NCBI RefSeq assembly: GCF_002531755.2 | Contig: NZ_CP034998.1 | Coordinates: 4,153,501-4,217,500, forward strand | Reading direction: 5' to 3' | From: Rhizobium acidisoli | GTDB lineage: Bacteria; Pseudomonadota; Alphaproteobacteria; Rhizobiales; Rhizobiaceae | Length of the DNA stretch: 64,000 nucleotides | In this document: one piece after another, positions 2,661 through 43,261 of the stretch | Layout: every line of letters begins with the position of its first letter | Numbering within the stretch: the first letter of the stretch is position 1 | The notes under the pieces: generated by a model | Told to the model about the DNA's origin: nothing | Database searches by the model: none | The model's input: only the letters and a program-made list of their open reading frames with translations | Position numbers and translations under genes: made by a program

Positions 2661-3199
2661 AACGGCTTCACCACGACAAGGATCACGATCACGATCATCA
2701 GCAAGGTCGGCGCTTCGTTCATGAAGCGCCAATAGCGCGCGGAGCGGCGATTTTCATCTTGCTCGAAGGCGCGGACCGCGCGGCTGAAAAACATATGAAC
2801 ACCGGTCAGCAGCACGACGAGGCCGATCTTGGCATGCAGCCAGCCGCCCTGGAATCCATAGACGGACCAGGCGAGATAGAGGCCGAAAATCCACGTCAGC
2901 ATCATCGCCGGCGTCATGATGATCCGAAGCAGCCGGCGCTCCATCACCTTGAAGGTTTCCGATTGCACCGAGCCCGGTTCGGCATCGGTGTGGTAGATGA
3001 ACAGCCGCGGCATATAGAACAACCCGGCCATCCAGGAAATCACCGCGATGATGTGCAGCGCCTTGATCCAGAGATAGAGATTATCAGGGTTCCAGGCGAA
3101 AAGCCCGACCGCCATCAGCGCGAAGAAAACCAGCGCAAAATGGGCGCGCCGGCGGGCATAGGCGCCGGGTCTGCGATCGGTCTGCCTTTCCATCGTCAC
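2657..3199 (-). CDS. hemJ: protoporphyrinogen oxidase HemJ
   Basis: Integral-membrane enzyme of the HemJ (UPF0093) family, which oxidises protoporphyrinogen IX to protoporphyrin IX in many alphaproteobacteria. The product is 180 residues with about four hydrophobic helices. It contains the conserved [22 protein letters not shown] region, whose histidines are thought to bind heme. The start is either GTG 3199 or ATG 3193. The GTG overlaps the hemE stop codon by 4 nt (GTGA), so it is probably translationally coupled to hemE, the gene two steps earlier in heme synthesis. That context agrees with a heme role. Confidence 0.93.
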
Positions 3200-4242
3200 T
3201 TCCCGCCTCGCATCTGGCCGCCCCGCACGCGATCGACCAGCAGGCGCACATGCTCGGGGTCGGCCTGCGGCGTGATGCCGTGGCCGAGATTGAAAATCAG
3301 CGGGCCATGGCCGAGATGCTGCAGAATATCGTCAATACCCTCTTCGAGCGCCCGCCCGCCGGCAACGACGCGCATCGGATCGAGATTGCCCTGCACCGGT
3401 CCGTCCTTCTGAAGTTCGGCGGCAAAGGCCAAAGGCACCGACCAGTCGAGGCCGATCGCATCGGCGCCCGTCTTCTGACGATAGTTCTTCAGCTGGTAAC
3501 CGGCGCCCTTGGCAAAGGCGATGATGCGCGCCTGCGGCCGCTGCGATTTGACCGAAGCGATCATTCGCGCAACCGGCCGGATCGCGAACGCCTCGAACTC
3601 CCTCTCGCCGAGAACGCCAGCCCAGGAATCGAAGATCTGCACGGCATCGGCGCCGGCATCGATCTGGGCGACGAGATAATCGGCCGACACATCCGCAAGC
3701 AGCATCAGCAGCTGTTCGAAGGCGCGGGGATGTTTGTAGGCGAAGAGACGGGCAGGGGCCTGATCCGGCGTGCCGTGACCGGCGATCATATAGGTCGCAA
3801 CCGTCCAGGGCGCCCCGCAGAAGCCGAGCAGCGTCGTCTCATCAGGCAACTCCTGGCGCAGCCGCCGCACCGTTTCCAGAACCGGTCTGAGATAATCGAC
3901 GACCTCTTCCCCGTTCAATCGCCCGATACCGGCTTCATCGATTGGATCCATCTCAGGGCCATGACCCTCGGTGAACCGGACGTTCCGCTTCATTGCATCG
4001 GGAATAACCAGGATATCGGAAAACAGAATGGCGGCGTCAAAGCCATAACGGCGGATCGGCTGCAATGTCACTTCGACGGCATGATCGGGCGTATAACAGA
4101 GATCGAGGAAACTTCCGGCCTTTGCCCGTGTCTGCCGATATTCCGGGAGATAACGTCCCGCCTGTCTCATCAGCCAGAGAGGAGGAGGGGAGAGGCTTTC
4201 ACCTTCGAGAACCCTCATGATCTTTCGGCGCGTGTCGCTCAA
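3196..4242 (-). CDS. hemE: uroporphyrinogen decarboxylase
   Basis: Converts uroporphyrinogen III to coproporphyrinogen III in the cytoplasm. The 348 residues match family length. The substrate-binding [11 protein letters not shown] signature lies at residues 26-36, and the [11 protein letters not shown] segment carries the conserved Asp of the active site. I favour TTG 4242 as start because GGGAAG lies 6 nt upstream and the [15 protein letters not shown]-terminus is typical; ATG 4218 would give a protein eight residues shorter. It overlaps hemJ by 4 nt. It is divergent from ppsR across the putative replication origin. Confidence 0.97.
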
Positions 4243-4459
4243 GCGCTTCTTCCCTATAAAAAATCAAAGATATTTTAAAAGGTTTCTATTTCTTAGAGTC
4301 GGTGTCTATCAAGGATTAAAATCCATCCACTGCCGATGCCATTTGTCGCGTGCTCGCAAAAAATATCGGAAGGATTTCGCCATTTCATCGAAAGTTCGGG
4401 GAGAAACCGAATCTGAAAATGATTCCAAATCCTTCCGGATCAATGATTTTTCTCGTGGC

Positions 4460-4468
4460 TGTGGATAA
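4460..4468 (-). promoter_or_regulatory. DnaA box 1 (perfect consensus)
   Basis: TGTGGATAA on the plus strand is the exact complement of the DnaA consensus TTATCCACA. It lies in the hemE-ppsR gap, and a degenerate TGTGGA half-site follows at 4471. Confidence 0.8.
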
Positions 4469-4548
4469 GCTGTGGACCTCATCTCGACAATTCAACCTCT
4501 TCCACATCGTCCACAGGGCCTGCCGAAACCGATCTGCAAAATTCGAAA

Positions 4549-4557
4549 TGTGGATAA
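4549..4557 (-). promoter_or_regulatory. DnaA box 2 (perfect consensus)
   Basis: A second exact TGTGGATAA in the same orientation as box 1, with starts 89 bp apart. Two degenerate TCCACA sites in the opposite orientation lie between them. Confidence 0.8.
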
Positions 4558-4642
4558 GGGGGCATGTTTTCCCTTGCCGGGAGATGCCTCGCCGCCTTAG
4601 CTCTGTTTCATCCAGTCTTTTCAACAGGCAGTGGAAAATAGC

Positions 4643-5464
4643 GTGGAGAACAGAACGAACTTCTTTCATCTGCATCTGATTTCTGACTCAACCGGGGAGA
4701 CTCTGATCTCCGCCGGGCGCGCCGCATCGGCGCAGTTCAGATCCGCGCAGCCGATCGAACATGTCTATCCGCTGATCCGTAACCGCAAGCAGCTGCTGCC
4801 GGTTCTGCAGGCGATCGATGATGCCCCCGGCATCGTGCTCTATACGATCGTCGACCGGGAGCTTGCGAGCCTGATCGATGAACGCTGCGTCGAGATGGGT
4901 GTCGCCTCGGTGAATGTGCTGGAGCCGGTCATGAATGCGTTTCAGATCTATCTCGGTGCGCCGTCGCGCCGTCGGGTCGGTGCCCAGCATGTGATGAATG
5001 CCGGATACTTCGCGCGCATCGAAGCGTTGAATTTCACCATGGATCATGACGATGGCCAGATGCCGGACGATTATAATGACGCCGATGTCGTCATCATCGG
5101 CATCAGCCGCACGTCGAAAACACCGACCAGCATCTACCTTGCCAACCGCGGCATCAAGACGGCGAACATTCCGATCGTTTATGGCGTGCCGTTGCCGGAG
5201 AGCCTGTTCACGACGACCAAGCCGCTGATCGTCTGCCTGATCGCCACCACCGACCGTATCTCCCAGGTGCGGGAAAATCGCATCCTCGGCGCGACGCATG
5301 GCTTCGATCGTGAACACTACACCGATCGCGCCGCAATATCCGAGGAGCTGAAATATGCCCGCTCGCTCTGCGCTCGCCACAACTGGCCGCTGATCGACGT
5401 CACTCGCCGCTCCATCGAGGAAACCGCCGCGGCAATCGTTGCCCTGCGCCCAAAGCTGCGCTAA
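4643..5464 (+). CDS. ppsR: PEP synthase / pyruvate phosphate dikinase regulatory kinase-phosphorylase
   Basis: DUF299-family bifunctional enzyme that phosphorylates (with ADP) and dephosphorylates (by phosphorolysis) a Thr of pyruvate phosphate dikinase or PEP synthase, turning it off or on. The family P-loop-like motif GISRTSKT is at residues 153-160 counted from this start. The N-terminus [20 protein letters not shown] is typical. I chose GTG 4643 because homologues begin there; GTG 4631, four codons upstream in frame, is equally possible. It is the first gene to the right of the putative origin and leads the run of overlapping genes maf-aroE-coaE-dnaQ. Confidence 0.93.
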
Positions 5465-5497
5465 GCGCTGACCGGCAGCCGGTACGTCGAGGAGCCT

Positions 5498-6097
5498 ATG
5501 ACAACAAAACTCATCCTTGCATCGTCGAGCCCGTTTCGACGGATGCTGATGGAAAATGCCGGCCTATCCTTCGAGGCGCATGCCGCGCAGATCGATGAAC
5601 GGGCGGTCGAAGCCCCGTTGGAAAAAGCTGGCGCTCAACCAGATGCCGTTGCTCTCGTTCTCGCCAGGGCCAAGGCCGAAGAGGTCAGCAGCCGTTTCCC
5701 CGATGGCCTGGTCATCGGTTCGGATCAGACGATGTCGCTCGGCGATCGCGTCTTCCATAAGCCCACGGATATGGTAGAGGCGGCCAATCACCTTCAGACT
5801 CTTTCGGGAGCAACCCACCGGTTGAACAGCGCTGTGGCAATCGTCCGCAACGGTGTTGTGGTGTGGGAACATCTCGCCCATGCCGATCTGACCATGCGGC
5901 CGCTGACGGCGGATTTCATTGGCCGGCACCTGGCCCGGGTCGGCAACAAGGCGCTCTCCAGCGTCGGCGCCTATCAATTGGAGGGGGAGGGCATCCAGCT
6001 GTTCGAGAAAATCGAAGGTGATTATTTCACCATTCTCGGCCTGCCGATGCTGCCGCTTCTGGAAAAATTACGAGACCTCGGAGCGATCGATGGGTGA
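5498..6097 (+). CDS. maf: Maf-family nucleotide pyrophosphatase
   Basis: Maf/YhdE/YceF-type enzyme that hydrolyses non-canonical or modified nucleoside triphosphates to monophosphates (house-cleaning), possibly also affecting septation. The 199 residues fit the family. Visible signatures are the N-terminal [12 protein letters not shown], the RAKAEEV segment and GSDQTMS. A GAGG motif a few bases before ATG 5498 supports the start. It overlaps aroE by 8 nt. The exact substrate cannot be read from sequence. Confidence 0.92.
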
Positions 6098-6947
6098 TTC
6101 ACGTGAAACATTCGGGCCGAAAGCGTTTGTCACGGGCTTTCCGGTCAAGCATTCGCGCTCGCCGTTGATCCACGGATATTGGCTGAAGACGCTCGGCCTG
6201 CCAGGCAGCTATCGCGCCCATGAAGTGGCGCCCGAGGCCTTTGCCGATTTCATCGCTTCGCTGAAGGATGGCAGTTCCGGCTTTACCGGCGGCAATGTCA
6301 CCATTCCCCACAAGGAACTGGCTTTCCGTCTCGCCGACAAGCCGGACGAACTATCGCACGAGCTCGGCGCCTCGAACACGCTTTGGCTGGACGATGGCCT
6401 GCTGCATGCGACGAACACCGACGGCCGCGGCTTCACCGCCAATCTCGACGAACGCCATCCGGGCTGGGACCGCCAGGACACGGCGGTCGTCTTTGGCGCC
6501 GGCGGCGCCAGCCGGGCGATCATCCAGGCGGTTCGTGATCGTGGTTTCAAGACGATTCACGTCGTCAACCGCACCGTCGAACGCGCCCGTGAACTGGCCG
6601 ATCGCTTTGGTCCGAAGGTTGAGGCCCATCCGGCGGGTGCGCTTGTCGAGGTCATGAAAGGCGCCGGCCTCTTCATCAATACCACCTCGCTCGGCATGGA
6701 CGGCGAAGCCGCACCCCAACTCGACTTCACCCCTCTTGCGGCTGGAGCCGTCGTCACCGATATCGTCTATATCCCCCTGAAGACGCCGATCCTGGCGCAG
6801 GCGCAAGAGCAGGGATTTCCGATCGTCGATGGTCTCGGCATGCTGTTGCATCAGGCCGTGCCGGGATTCGAAAAATGGTTCGGCAAGCGTCCTGTCGTCG
6901 ACGCAGCACTGCGCGCGCTGATTATCGCCGATATGGAAGCACACTGA
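6090..6947 (+). CDS. aroE: shikimate dehydrogenase
   Basis: NADPH-dependent reduction of 3-dehydroshikimate to shikimate in chorismate synthesis. The 285-residue protein starts [13 protein letters not shown] at ATG 6090. It contains the shikimate-binding [12 protein letters not shown], the NVTIPHKE motif with catalytic Lys, NTDGRGF, and the dinucleotide-binding GAGGASRAI. An in-frame extension upstream to 5919 lies wholly inside maf and is not conserved protein. ATG 6090 overlaps the maf stop by 8 nt (ATGGGTGA) and its own stop overlaps the coaE start, so the genes are translationally coupled. Confidence 0.97.
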
Positions 6948-8339: not shown

Positions 8340-8822
8340 TCAGTTCGGAACGGCTTCAACCTTGGCGCGGGCCTGTTCTTCGGCAACGCGCTGGGCGAAC
8401 ATCTGCGTGAAGTCGATCGGGTCGATCATCAGCGGCGGGAAACCGCCGTTGCGGGTGACGTCGGCGATGATCTGACGGGCGAAGGGGAAGAGCATGCGCG
8501 GGCACTCGATGAAGAGAACCGGCAGCATATGTTCCTGCGGGAAACCGGCAACGCGGAAGACGCCGCCATAAGCGAGTTCCGTATGGAACACCGTCTTGTC
8601 GCCGTCCTTGGCTTCCGCATTCAGCGACAGCACGACATCGAAATCCGTATCCGAAAGCGGGTTGGCGTTGACGTTCACATTGATGTTGATCGTCGGCGCC
8701 TTGTCGCGGGCCTGCAGCGAACGCGGCGCACCCGGATTTTCGAAGGATAGGTCCTTGGTATACTGCGCAAGGATCGAAAGGGTGGGGCTGGCCGCACCGT
8801 TGCTGTTGTTATCGTCTGCCAT
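8340..8822 (-). CDS. secB: protein-export chaperone SecB
   Basis: Tetrameric cytoplasmic chaperone that keeps preproteins unfolded and hands them to SecA. The 160 residues from ATG 8822 ([20 protein letters not shown]) match the alphaproteobacterial form. The conserved block [19 protein letters not shown] is present, as is the acidic/hydrophobic groove region. In-frame sequence upstream to 8951 lacks similarity and overlaps the region before fxsA; I reject it as coding. The gene converges on dnaQ across a terminator. Confidence 0.97.
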
Positions 8823-8923
8823 TGGCTTTTCCTCGAGGGGCATGGGAATGGTGCCGCCATCTAACATTTCAGGGAAGGGCTTACAACCCTGAGCGCTTGC
8901 CGCCGTTGATCGGTCGAAGCGCC

Positions 8924-9430
8924 TCAATCTCCGAGATGTTTGCCCGACCATGGCGAGTTACGGTCCGGCTCCCTATGATAGTCCTCGTCGTCGAGATCGA
9001 CCACCTTCGAATTCTGGTTGCGGTCGCGGAAATCCGGTTTCGGCCCAGCGGAAAAGCCGCTCCTGGCGTTGACGGTGACGAAGCGTTTGGCGACCCACCG
9101 CCAGACGAAAACACGCACCGGCGGAATGAGGATCAGGATTGCGATGACATCCGTGATGAAACCGGGAATGATGAGCAGCAGCGAGGCGATGACGTTCATC
9201 GCCGGCCGCAGCAACTCGCGGCCCGGCATCACCCCGTTTCGTCCTTCGCTCGACATGCGGCGCAAAATACCGATGCCCTGCCGGCGCAGCAGAACCATCC
9301 CGAGAACGAAGCCCAGCATGACGAGCGCCAGCGTCAGCCACAATCCGATTGCGCGGCCGACGACGACGAAACCGGCAATTTCGGCGAGCGGCAGCAGCAG
9401 AATGAAAGCTGGCAGGATGGAAAAACGCAT
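8924..9430 (-). CDS. fxsA: FxsA-family membrane protein
   Basis: Small inner-membrane protein of 168 residues. The N-terminal 50 residues and the segment at about 76-110 are strongly hydrophobic (three to four helices). [10 protein letters not shown] and the PGFITDVIA motif between them are typical of FxsA, and a hydrophilic, charged C-terminal tail follows. In E. coli FxsA overproduction relieves phage T7 exclusion, but its normal role is unclear. It lies upstream of secB on the same strand, 101 bp apart, and is divergent from the Tim44-like gene. Confidence 0.9.
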
Positions 9431-42942: not shown

Positions 42943-43105
42943 CAGTGCGCAATCTCCCGGATTTGCTTTCCCCAGGCGGTCTCAGTGACCGGATGCGCTT
43001 ATGGAGGATAAAGGTGGAACAAATTGTGGCAAAGATAAAGGGAAAGATTGTCGTCGAATTCGAAGGCAATCCTGAGTGGTGCGGTAAAATGTTTCAACGC
43101 GCCCA

Positions 43106-43122
43106 TTTAAAACGATTTAAAA
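43106..43122. promoter_or_regulatory. LacI-like palindrome 1 upstream of pckA
   Basis: TTTAAAACGATTTAAA with a central CG (43113-43114) is a near-perfect palindrome, the shape of LacI/GalR-family operators. In Sinorhizobium a LacI-type regulator, PckR, controls pckA; the link to this site is inference. Confidence 0.4.
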
Positions 43123-43135
43123 TTATGGCGTTAAA

Positions 43136-43150
43136 TTTAAATCGATTAAA
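43136..43150. promoter_or_regulatory. LacI-like palindrome 2 upstream of pckA
   Basis: TTTAAATCGATTAAA with a central CG (43143-43144), exactly 30 bp (about three helical turns) from the centre of the first site, so two dimers could bind on one DNA face. Confidence 0.4.
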
Positions 43151-43261
43151 TAATTGATATTACTATATTTTTTCAAGTTTCGTCTCTTGCGTTTTAAAAT
43201 TTCTCCCCGTATTTTCGCGATTAGTTTTAACGGCAACGAGCCTGAGCGAAGGGAACTAGCC

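Follow-up and report, generated by a model that had tools for sequence, protein, structure and literature searches.

Where does replication of the Rhizobium acidisoli chromosome begin, and which element would open the DNA there? The stretch analyzed here (the window, 64,000 nucleotides; C1:4153501-4217500) contains a gap between hemE and ppsR that a preliminary description took to be the likely chromosomal origin. The genome comprises 7.50 Mb in five contigs, and dnaA lies at the start (C1:1) of contig C1 (4,569,280 bp). The location of the origin, the polarity of the chromosome, conservation among relatives, a three-nucleotide register at the order level, and the change of a DnaA residue are computed here. 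The gap (Table 1) is very probably the DnaA-type origin of the Rhizobium chromosome; an origin at this place was expected, and it is the unwinding element that may be new.

Genomic Setting of the hemE-ppsR Gap

Transcription leaves the gap on both sides, with rho, hemJ, and hemE running leftward and ppsR, maf, coaE, dnaQ, and gyrB rightward, as expected from the earlier claim that the flanking genes are co-directional with forks leaving the gap; the exception to the rightward trend is secB (8340-8951), on the minus strand. Divergent hemE adjoins ppsR in 85 of 89 order-level loci, and many R. etli/leguminosarum-type records carry a ppsR with 97-99% identity to the one in the window. The first base of the R. 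johnstonii 3841 record lies 464 bp before its ppsR, i.e., just inside the hemE start, which suggests that the depositors opened the circle here. An Rfam scan of positions 3000-6000 returned no match. Directly to the right of the window, 5,000 N occur in C1:4217501-4237500 (L021); the GC content of 0.445 obtained for this stretch counts N as bases and is ∼0.59 without them, so it does not represent an A+T-rich island.

Table 1. Features of the hemE-ppsR gap and its surroundings, in window coordinates.
Feature	Position	Strand	Remarks
hemE, left boundary gene	3196..4242	-	transcribed away from the gap; TIGR01464, 407.7 bits (cut-off 302.95)
oriC gap (assignment very probable), 388 bp	4243..4630	.	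between hemE (-) and ppsR (+)
Candidate DUE, least stable 50 bp of the gap	4246..4295	.	nearest-neighbor stability
Candidate T-type trios TTT CTA TTT CTT	4283..4294	+	register from box-anchored order alignment
GANTC (CcrM methylation) site GAGTC	4296..4300	.	overlaps the position that the box-proximal trio occupies in other families
Degenerate R1-like DnaA site	4302..4310	-	aligned with GTGGATTAC of other families; 3-4 mismatches as DnaA box
Second tandem DnaA-like half site AGGATTA	4312..4318	-	aligned with GGGATT at +10 to +15
Inverted half box TCCAC	4326..4330	+	module +24 to +28; column profile
GANTC site GAATC	4409..4413	.	sequence scan
GANTC site GATTC	4421..4425	.	sequence scan
Perfect DnaA box	4460..4468	-	perfect in 21/80 relatives
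Weak DnaA box	4498..4506	+	2 mismatches
Weak DnaA box	4507..4515	+	2 mismatches
Perfect DnaA box	4549..4557	-	perfect in 43/80 relatives
Conserved stretch beside box 4549	4561..4578	.	0.933 identity over 80 loci
Weak DnaA-like site TTTTCAACA before ppsR	4618..4626	+	2 mismatches; mean identity 0.833 at 4600-4630
Weak DnaA box	4630-4638		2 mismatches
ppsR (DUF299/COG1806), right boundary gene	4631..5464	+	NF003742, 332.7 bits (cut-off 225)
parS-like site	6095..6110	.	1 mismatch; C1:4159595-4159610

Chromosome-Scale Evidence for the Origin

A parS cluster, a KOPS flip almost opposite on the chromosome, the best fit of the GC skew, and hemE-ppsR synteny agree on the gap as the origin. Using TGTTTCACGTGAAACA, which we take to be the parS consensus, four parS-like sites (at most two mismatches) were found in the genome, all within 47 kb of the gap (C1:4111478, 4151268, which is perfect, 4153257, and 4159595); a reversed-pattern control gave one match per strand. 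For GGGNAGGG, which we assume to be a KOPS-like motif, 281 sites occur in the 2.07 Mb sampled (45% of C1), and their polarity flips at 1.78-1.816 Mb (all 14 sites at 1.6-1.8 Mb are on the plus strand and all 22 at 1.8-2.0 Mb on the minus strand), the exact antipode of the gap being 1.873 Mb. The KOPS sites by the gap itself are few and mixed, so the origin is not pinpointed by KOPS. In a polarity fit, origins within 6 points of the best one span 3.87-4.155 Mb, with the gap at the right edge, and the strand-polarity switch at the origin is resolved to about 0.3 Mb, with the terminus opposite and parS nearby.

Could the chromosome start elsewhere, e.g., at dnaA or at another DnaA cluster, with hemE-ppsR merely a conserved pair? 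KOPS alone fits slightly better ∼70-78 kb to the left (the leading-minus-lagging score peaks at 213 at 4.080-4.088 Mb and is 205 at the gap), and tandem perfect DnaA boxes occur at C1:1649211-1649230. However, dnaA, 411 kb from the gap, fits the KOPS polarity worse (167), the tandem pair is in the terminus half, with the KOPS flip ∼0.15 Mb away, the parS sites are grouped around the gap, and the DnaA score of the gap is above that of every sampled window (see below), and we regard a start elsewhere as very improbable.

The preliminary description had expected the minimum of the GC skew at the gap. The best two-arm fit does place origin and terminus at 4.16 and 1.84 Mb (80-kb grid), with higher skew on the right arm than on the left (P 4e-7) and, over 88 blocks, an R2 of 0.27 (60 permutations: mean 0.07, maximum 0.175). 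The skew is weak, and the gap is not pinpointed by it, bootstrap origins ranging from 0.72 Mb left of the gap up to the gap (5th-95th percentile).

A dif-like site at C1:1806486-1806507, one of two on C1 with two mismatches, falls in the KOPS flip, a coincidence that is only suggestive, given that at up to three mismatches the pattern gives 53 matches, hardly more than the 40 of its control. This site resembles C3:24832-24853 (CGCATAA-N6-TTATGGAAC, with one more spacer change in the C3 copy), and the two are perhaps the dif sites of two replicons.

DnaA Boxes, the A+T-Rich Segment and Their Conservation

Two perfect DnaA boxes, weaker boxes between them, and an A+T-rich block next to hemE had been described for the gap, and all are present: the perfect TTATCCACA boxes share the minus strand, lie 89 bp apart from start to start, and enclose two boxes of two mismatches each, and the GC content beside hemE is 0.40 at 4200-4299 and 0.35 at 4250-4349. 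With TTATNCACA, the two perfect boxes are the sole matches in the 64-kb window, where chance would give 0.39 on average and 8 of 100 shuffles yield two or more, and the gap holds two of the ten perfect boxes of the 4.57-Mb contig (genome total 15). At up to one mismatch, the window contains four matches vs. 3.7 expected, so it is the clustering alone that stands out. A weighted DnaA-site score reaches 12 in the gap, compared with a maximum of 10 in 39,785 windows (388 bp, step 50 bp) sampled elsewhere on the chromosome, beyond the 64-kb window, and the candidate DUE is less stable than all but 0.001% (a fraction of 0.00001) of the 50-bp windows sampled. Both the box cluster and the A+T-rich segment of the gap thereby exceed the genomic background. 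Elsewhere in the 64-kb window, one place (43104-43187) is at least as unstable as 4246-4295.

To gauge conservation, the window was aligned with 80 ppsR loci from genome records. The block 4281-4320 averages 0.960 identity, compared with 0.737 in the neighboring hemE start and 0.561 at 4335-4455. Exact DnaA boxes were ruled out as the conserved signal, in view of the few relatives in which they are perfect (Table 1), though boxes 4460 and 4549 mostly retain TGTGGA. The perfect boxes being poorly conserved and the DUE/R1-like block strongly so, the earlier suggestion that degenerate sites matter is well founded.

The tandem perfect boxes in the terminus half (C1:1649211-1649230; L285:2211-2230) are 11 bp apart, are accompanied by a third similar site, and sit in the gap before an ORF that resembles an aldo/keto reductase (named by eye). 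They are a possible DnaA-regulated promoter or DnaA-titration site.

A T-Rich Trinucleotide Array Beside a Degenerate DnaA Site

Within the conserved block, all 80 relatives have T at the middle position of each candidate trio (4284, 4287, 4290, and 4293); with the whole block 0.960 identical, conservation does not single out this base. The comparison was widened to the order, taken as Hyphomicrobiales, of which 120 genomes were searched and 103 had ppsR (the window's own included). From the 102 other loci, 89 were used, and removal of four with no hemE in reach (L189, L192, L231, and L249) and of one from the same genus as the window (L176) left 84 gaps. Direct matching to the Rhizobium block mostly failed outside its genus, and a box-anchored comparison was therefore adopted, in which the alignment was anchored on GTGGATTANNGGGATTA alone with at most five mismatches; 52 of the 84 gaps pass and 32 do not.

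In those 52 gaps, TT recurs before GTGGATTAC at -7/-6, -10/-9, -13/-12, -16/-15, and -19/-18 (T 0.50-0.87). The layout consists of TT trios whose intervening base is often G, followed by GGC, GTGGATTAC, and GGGATT, with an inverted TCCACAA at +24. A profile built from these gaps scores 18.1 bits at 4302, the best of the window (next 3.8), a value reached by none of 4,040,660 sampled chromosomal positions outside the window. After thinning (removal of sequences at least 70% alike), 41 gaps remained, and none of 2000 random registers reached their period-3 signal for T or for G; among the 16 best-anchored gaps alone, the T register was reached by 22 of 2000 random registers and the G register by none of 2000.

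A minus-strand DnaA box with at most two mismatches lies within 170 bp of hemE in 43 of the 84 gaps. A T-type run of at least four trios accompanies it in 30 of these 43 (flank shuffles: mean 9.3, maximum 17, 0 of 200 reaching the observed count), and an A-type run in three (shuffled-flank mean 2.8). At the order level, then, a trinucleotide array stands in three-nucleotide register beside a DnaA box, with T as its middle base.

Several explicit trio rules were also applied. The first, T[AT][GTA] in runs of at least four, was weak: among the 84 order gaps such runs occur on the plus strand in 15 and on the minus strand in 9, and among the 26 gaps from other orders in 4 and 1, respectively. It was rejected, having failed in the Rhizobium clade (1 plus and 25 minus of 80). 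At five of five trios, the TTN rule gave 9 plus and 0 minus of 84 and the YTN rule 25 plus and 2 minus of 84, and the TNG rule gave 7 plus and 0 minus of 84; these three were picked after inspection of the data, and the register test and the shuffled-flank count of A-type vs. T-type runs depend less on such a post hoc choice. Read on the minus strand, the same tracts also qualify as WAR trios, in 14 of 84 order gaps and in 77 of 80 loci of the Rhizobium clade; this reading was set aside, the minus strand having the wrong polarity relative to the box for a BUS.

GANTC Sites and Independence From hemE

The GANTC site at 4296-4300 occurs in 80 of 80 relatives (GAGTC in 79, GACTC in 1). Within 130 bp of hemE, the order set contains 139 GANTC sites vs. 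a shuffled mean of 57.5, distributed over 70 of 84 gaps; farther from hemE they are hardly enriched (55 vs. 47.0 and 73 vs. 59.0). The genome encodes GcrA and one RAMA-domain protein, presumably linked with CcrM, and among 14 control genomes the RAMA-domain family is detected only in Caulobacter. CcrM methylates GANTC in nearly all Alphaproteobacteria, and in A. tumefaciens the number of ori1 foci did not change significantly when CcrM was overexpressed (PMC11514494, in part), which argues against a strong direct effect of methylation.

With its position 39-78 bp ahead of the hemE start, the block could be the promoter and leader of hemE, leaders often being purine-rich on the sense strand; the perfect DnaA boxes would then form the origin, and any A+T-rich DNA would suffice for opening. 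The C. crescentus hemE promoter reportedly lies in Cori. Rearranged genomes bear on this directly. In two genomes of one genus (G032 and G103), hemE has been relocated, and its upstream regions (L293, L292, and a second copy, L304) contain no GANTC in 130 bp and no TT[A/G]TT or T-tract (GC 0.57-0.62), whereas the ppsR gaps left behind (L189 and L192) retain GANTC sites together with GTGGATTG and CCGTGGATTG; no clear T-trio run is present in these two retained gaps. In G086 it is ppsR that has been relocated: hemE (L289) retains TTGTTTCTGTTAGGGCCGTGGATAACAGGGATA with the T-tract, box, and GANTC sites, and no such elements occur upstream of ppsR (L231). A match to the box pair (at most five mismatches) is also found in 8 of 14 genomes that lack a ppsR match and have a readable hemE upstream region. 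The rearrangements, from few genomes, argue that the block is not simply a hemE leader. Moreover, ppsR has no matching A-richness upstream, and a consensus scan of 4200-4700 detected no sigma-70-like promoter, which is weak evidence in this group. We consider the leader explanation improbable and retain the reading of the block as part of the origin.

Other Orders of the Class and the DnaA Residue

The class set comprised 96 genomes, 64 of them with ppsR (including the window's own and one order member), and the 30 best-scoring of the 64 were used. Outside the order this left 28 loci, two of which (L309 and L310) are without hemE, giving 26 gaps. Many of these display A-rich DNA, then TGG/TAG/TTG repeats, then CCT-GTGGATAACGGGGAT. 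TNG fills at least four of five consecutive trios in 10 of 26 on the plus strand and in none on the minus strand (0.3 in shuffles), with trio counts of TGG 29, TAG 23, and TTG 20; some anchors in this set are far from hemE and probably wrong, and were retained in the profile and TNG counts. Over the 26 gaps, the register of trios to box was not significant, and T-type runs beside the box were not enriched (7 of 26, a count reached by 25 of 200 shuffles); A-type runs numbered 2 vs. 2.8 in shuffles.

The Rhizobium DnaA segment TAEYFMWRFATAIRDN aligns with SSEKFTNEFINSIRDN of 8btg, so that Asn187 corresponds to Trp253 and Ile190 to Ala; we take 8btg to be the DnaA of B. subtilis and 2z4r that of T. 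maritima. In these alignments, 8btg and 2z4r both have Asn at the residue-187 position, where 1l8q has Gln; 1l8q shares its sequence with 3r8f, called A. aeolicus (PMC10721633, in part). In the B. subtilis BUS structure, Asn187, with Glu183, contacts the trio adenine, Arg202 and Glu228 contact the trio guanine, and none of these residues is universally conserved (PMC10721633, in part). DnaA matches were found in 91 of 96 class and 120 of 120 order genomes, and 58 DnaAs (28 from other orders and 30 from the order) were taken as best-scoring loci rather than as a random draw. The Asn187 equivalent in these 58 is Tyr in 39, Phe in 12, Trp in 3, His in 3, and Val in 1, and Asn in none, which amounts to one comparison across a clade and not to repeated independent events. 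Glu183 is Glu in 58 of 58, and Arg202 is replaced by Lys in 58 of 58.

Read together, the divergence of the trios and the replacement of Asn187 could mean that the cis code and the protein reading it have changed in concert. Tentatively, and at somewhat less than even odds in our estimation, Alphaproteobacterial origins may carry divergent trios (3'-G[T/G/A]T-5' vs. 3'-GAT-5'), T-dominated in the Rhizobium order, matched by an aromatic residue in place of DnaA Asn187 and with a CcrM site built in.

Comparison With Known Origins

A CtrA-controlled origin of the Cori type was rejected, no site having been found in a sequence scan of the gap for TTAA-N7-TTAA, the CtrA consensus. The S. meliloti oriC is reportedly the subject of Sibley et al. 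2006, a study cited in PMC2877005. Without CtrA sites, the Rhizobium gap is like the origin of S. meliloti, reported to be free of CtrA motifs and not bound by CtrA (PMC4433202, in part), and unlike Caulobacter Cori. It shares with both Cori and S. meliloti oriC the boundary genes, DnaA boxes, an A+T-rich part, and nearby parS (PMC1914354 and PMC4468827, in part); the hemE neighborhood had been called a known origin site, and hemE-ppsR origins are indeed known (PMC1914354, in part).

The BUS of B. subtilis and H. pylori offers a second comparison. Like a BUS, the gap combines tandem DnaA sites, a short GC-rich spacer, and a trinucleotide array on the strand reading 5' to 3' into TGTGGATAA, in three-nucleotide register at the order level; for B. 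subtilis, how the boxes are oriented with respect to the trios is partly background. It differs from a BUS in that the middle base is T (G, A, or T in other orders) instead of the conserved adenine, in the replacement of Asn187 in all 58 DnaAs, and in the GANTC site at the module. The BUS geometry used here follows PMC8287927 and PMC10316083 (both in part), and the strict rule demands three or more NAN trios, on the proper strand, no farther than 16 bp from a DnaA box with at most two mismatches (PMC8287927, in part). A canonical BUS was rejected, since the longest NAN run by any box with up to two mismatches in the gap is two and A-type runs are at shuffle level.

With the E. coli DUE-R1-R5M arrangement, the gap shares a T-rich strand 5' of an R1-type box and adenine-methylation sites by the unwinding element; unlike E. 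coli oriC (Dam GATC), it has another methylase motif, a short spacer, and a trinucleotide register.

A Candidate Opening Mechanism

We infer that the gap fires, that T-trios are bound as single strands, and that GANTC has a role in firing. DnaA would occupy both the tandem R1-like sites (4302-4318) and the boxes at 4460, 4498, 4507, and 4549, and an oligomer nucleated at the R1-like sites would run leftward onto the plus strand of 4246-4295. There the T-based trinucleotides would act as deviant DnaA-trios, each protomer engaging three bases, and the oligomer would open the duplex at 4246-4295 for helicase loading. The GANTC at the proximal trio position could let the module sense CcrM methylation. 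Unwinding through T-trios is, in our judgment, the probable mechanism, and the same moderate confidence applies to the origin assignment and the T-trio mechanism taken jointly.

The gap might instead be an origin opened by E. coli-type ssDUE recruitment, in which the T-rich upper strand with its TT[A/G]T(T) motifs is captured, after bending of the DNA, by DnaA oligomerized on the left boxes, with no trio register. The window speaks to this in two ways: the gap contains no exact match on either strand to WATCAA-N4-TTR, the IHF consensus, although by eye 4307-4319 is one mismatch from it, and no TT[A/G]T occurs on the plus strand at 4243-4302, the window's own DUE. In the order set, TT[A/G]TT is strand-biased on the hemE side (107 plus and 34 minus; 45.8 in shuffles) and occurs on the plus strand in 52 of 84 gaps, and the E. 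coli DUE-R1 stretch is likewise T-rich 5' of TGTGGATAAC. The polarity of TT[A/G]TT is as described for E. coli, where opening needs no register (PMC10380432, in part), but the three-nucleotide register and short GC spacer found here resemble a BUS, the E. coli DUE-R1 spacer being longer. On balance, ssDUE recruitment appears unlikely, if the most credible of the alternatives, and we continue with the T-trio mechanism.

In B. subtilis, A-to-T or A-to-G changes in the trios lower origin activity (PMC10721633, in part), so that a T-trio would need a DnaA able to read it. The BUS authors identified no DnaA-trios in 15% of the genomes that they searched and suspect deviant trios without the middle adenine (PMC8287927, in part). 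The module described here is a concrete candidate for these, with a matching change in a base-contacting DnaA residue, and a joint change of trio code and DnaA becomes testable in vitro; the conserved GANTC, in turn, gives Rhizobiaceae a specific candidate site for cell-cycle control of initiation. In the main texts of the open-access literature searched, no description of T-type trios in Alphaproteobacteria was found, and the available passages on hemE-ppsR origins contain no mention of the module (T-trio, R1-like box, second box, and GANTC).

Five NTN triplets are also present at 4443-4468, ending 2 bp before the perfect box 4460, in and beside the poorly conserved stretch 4335-4455; this run is a possible second opening site in this species.
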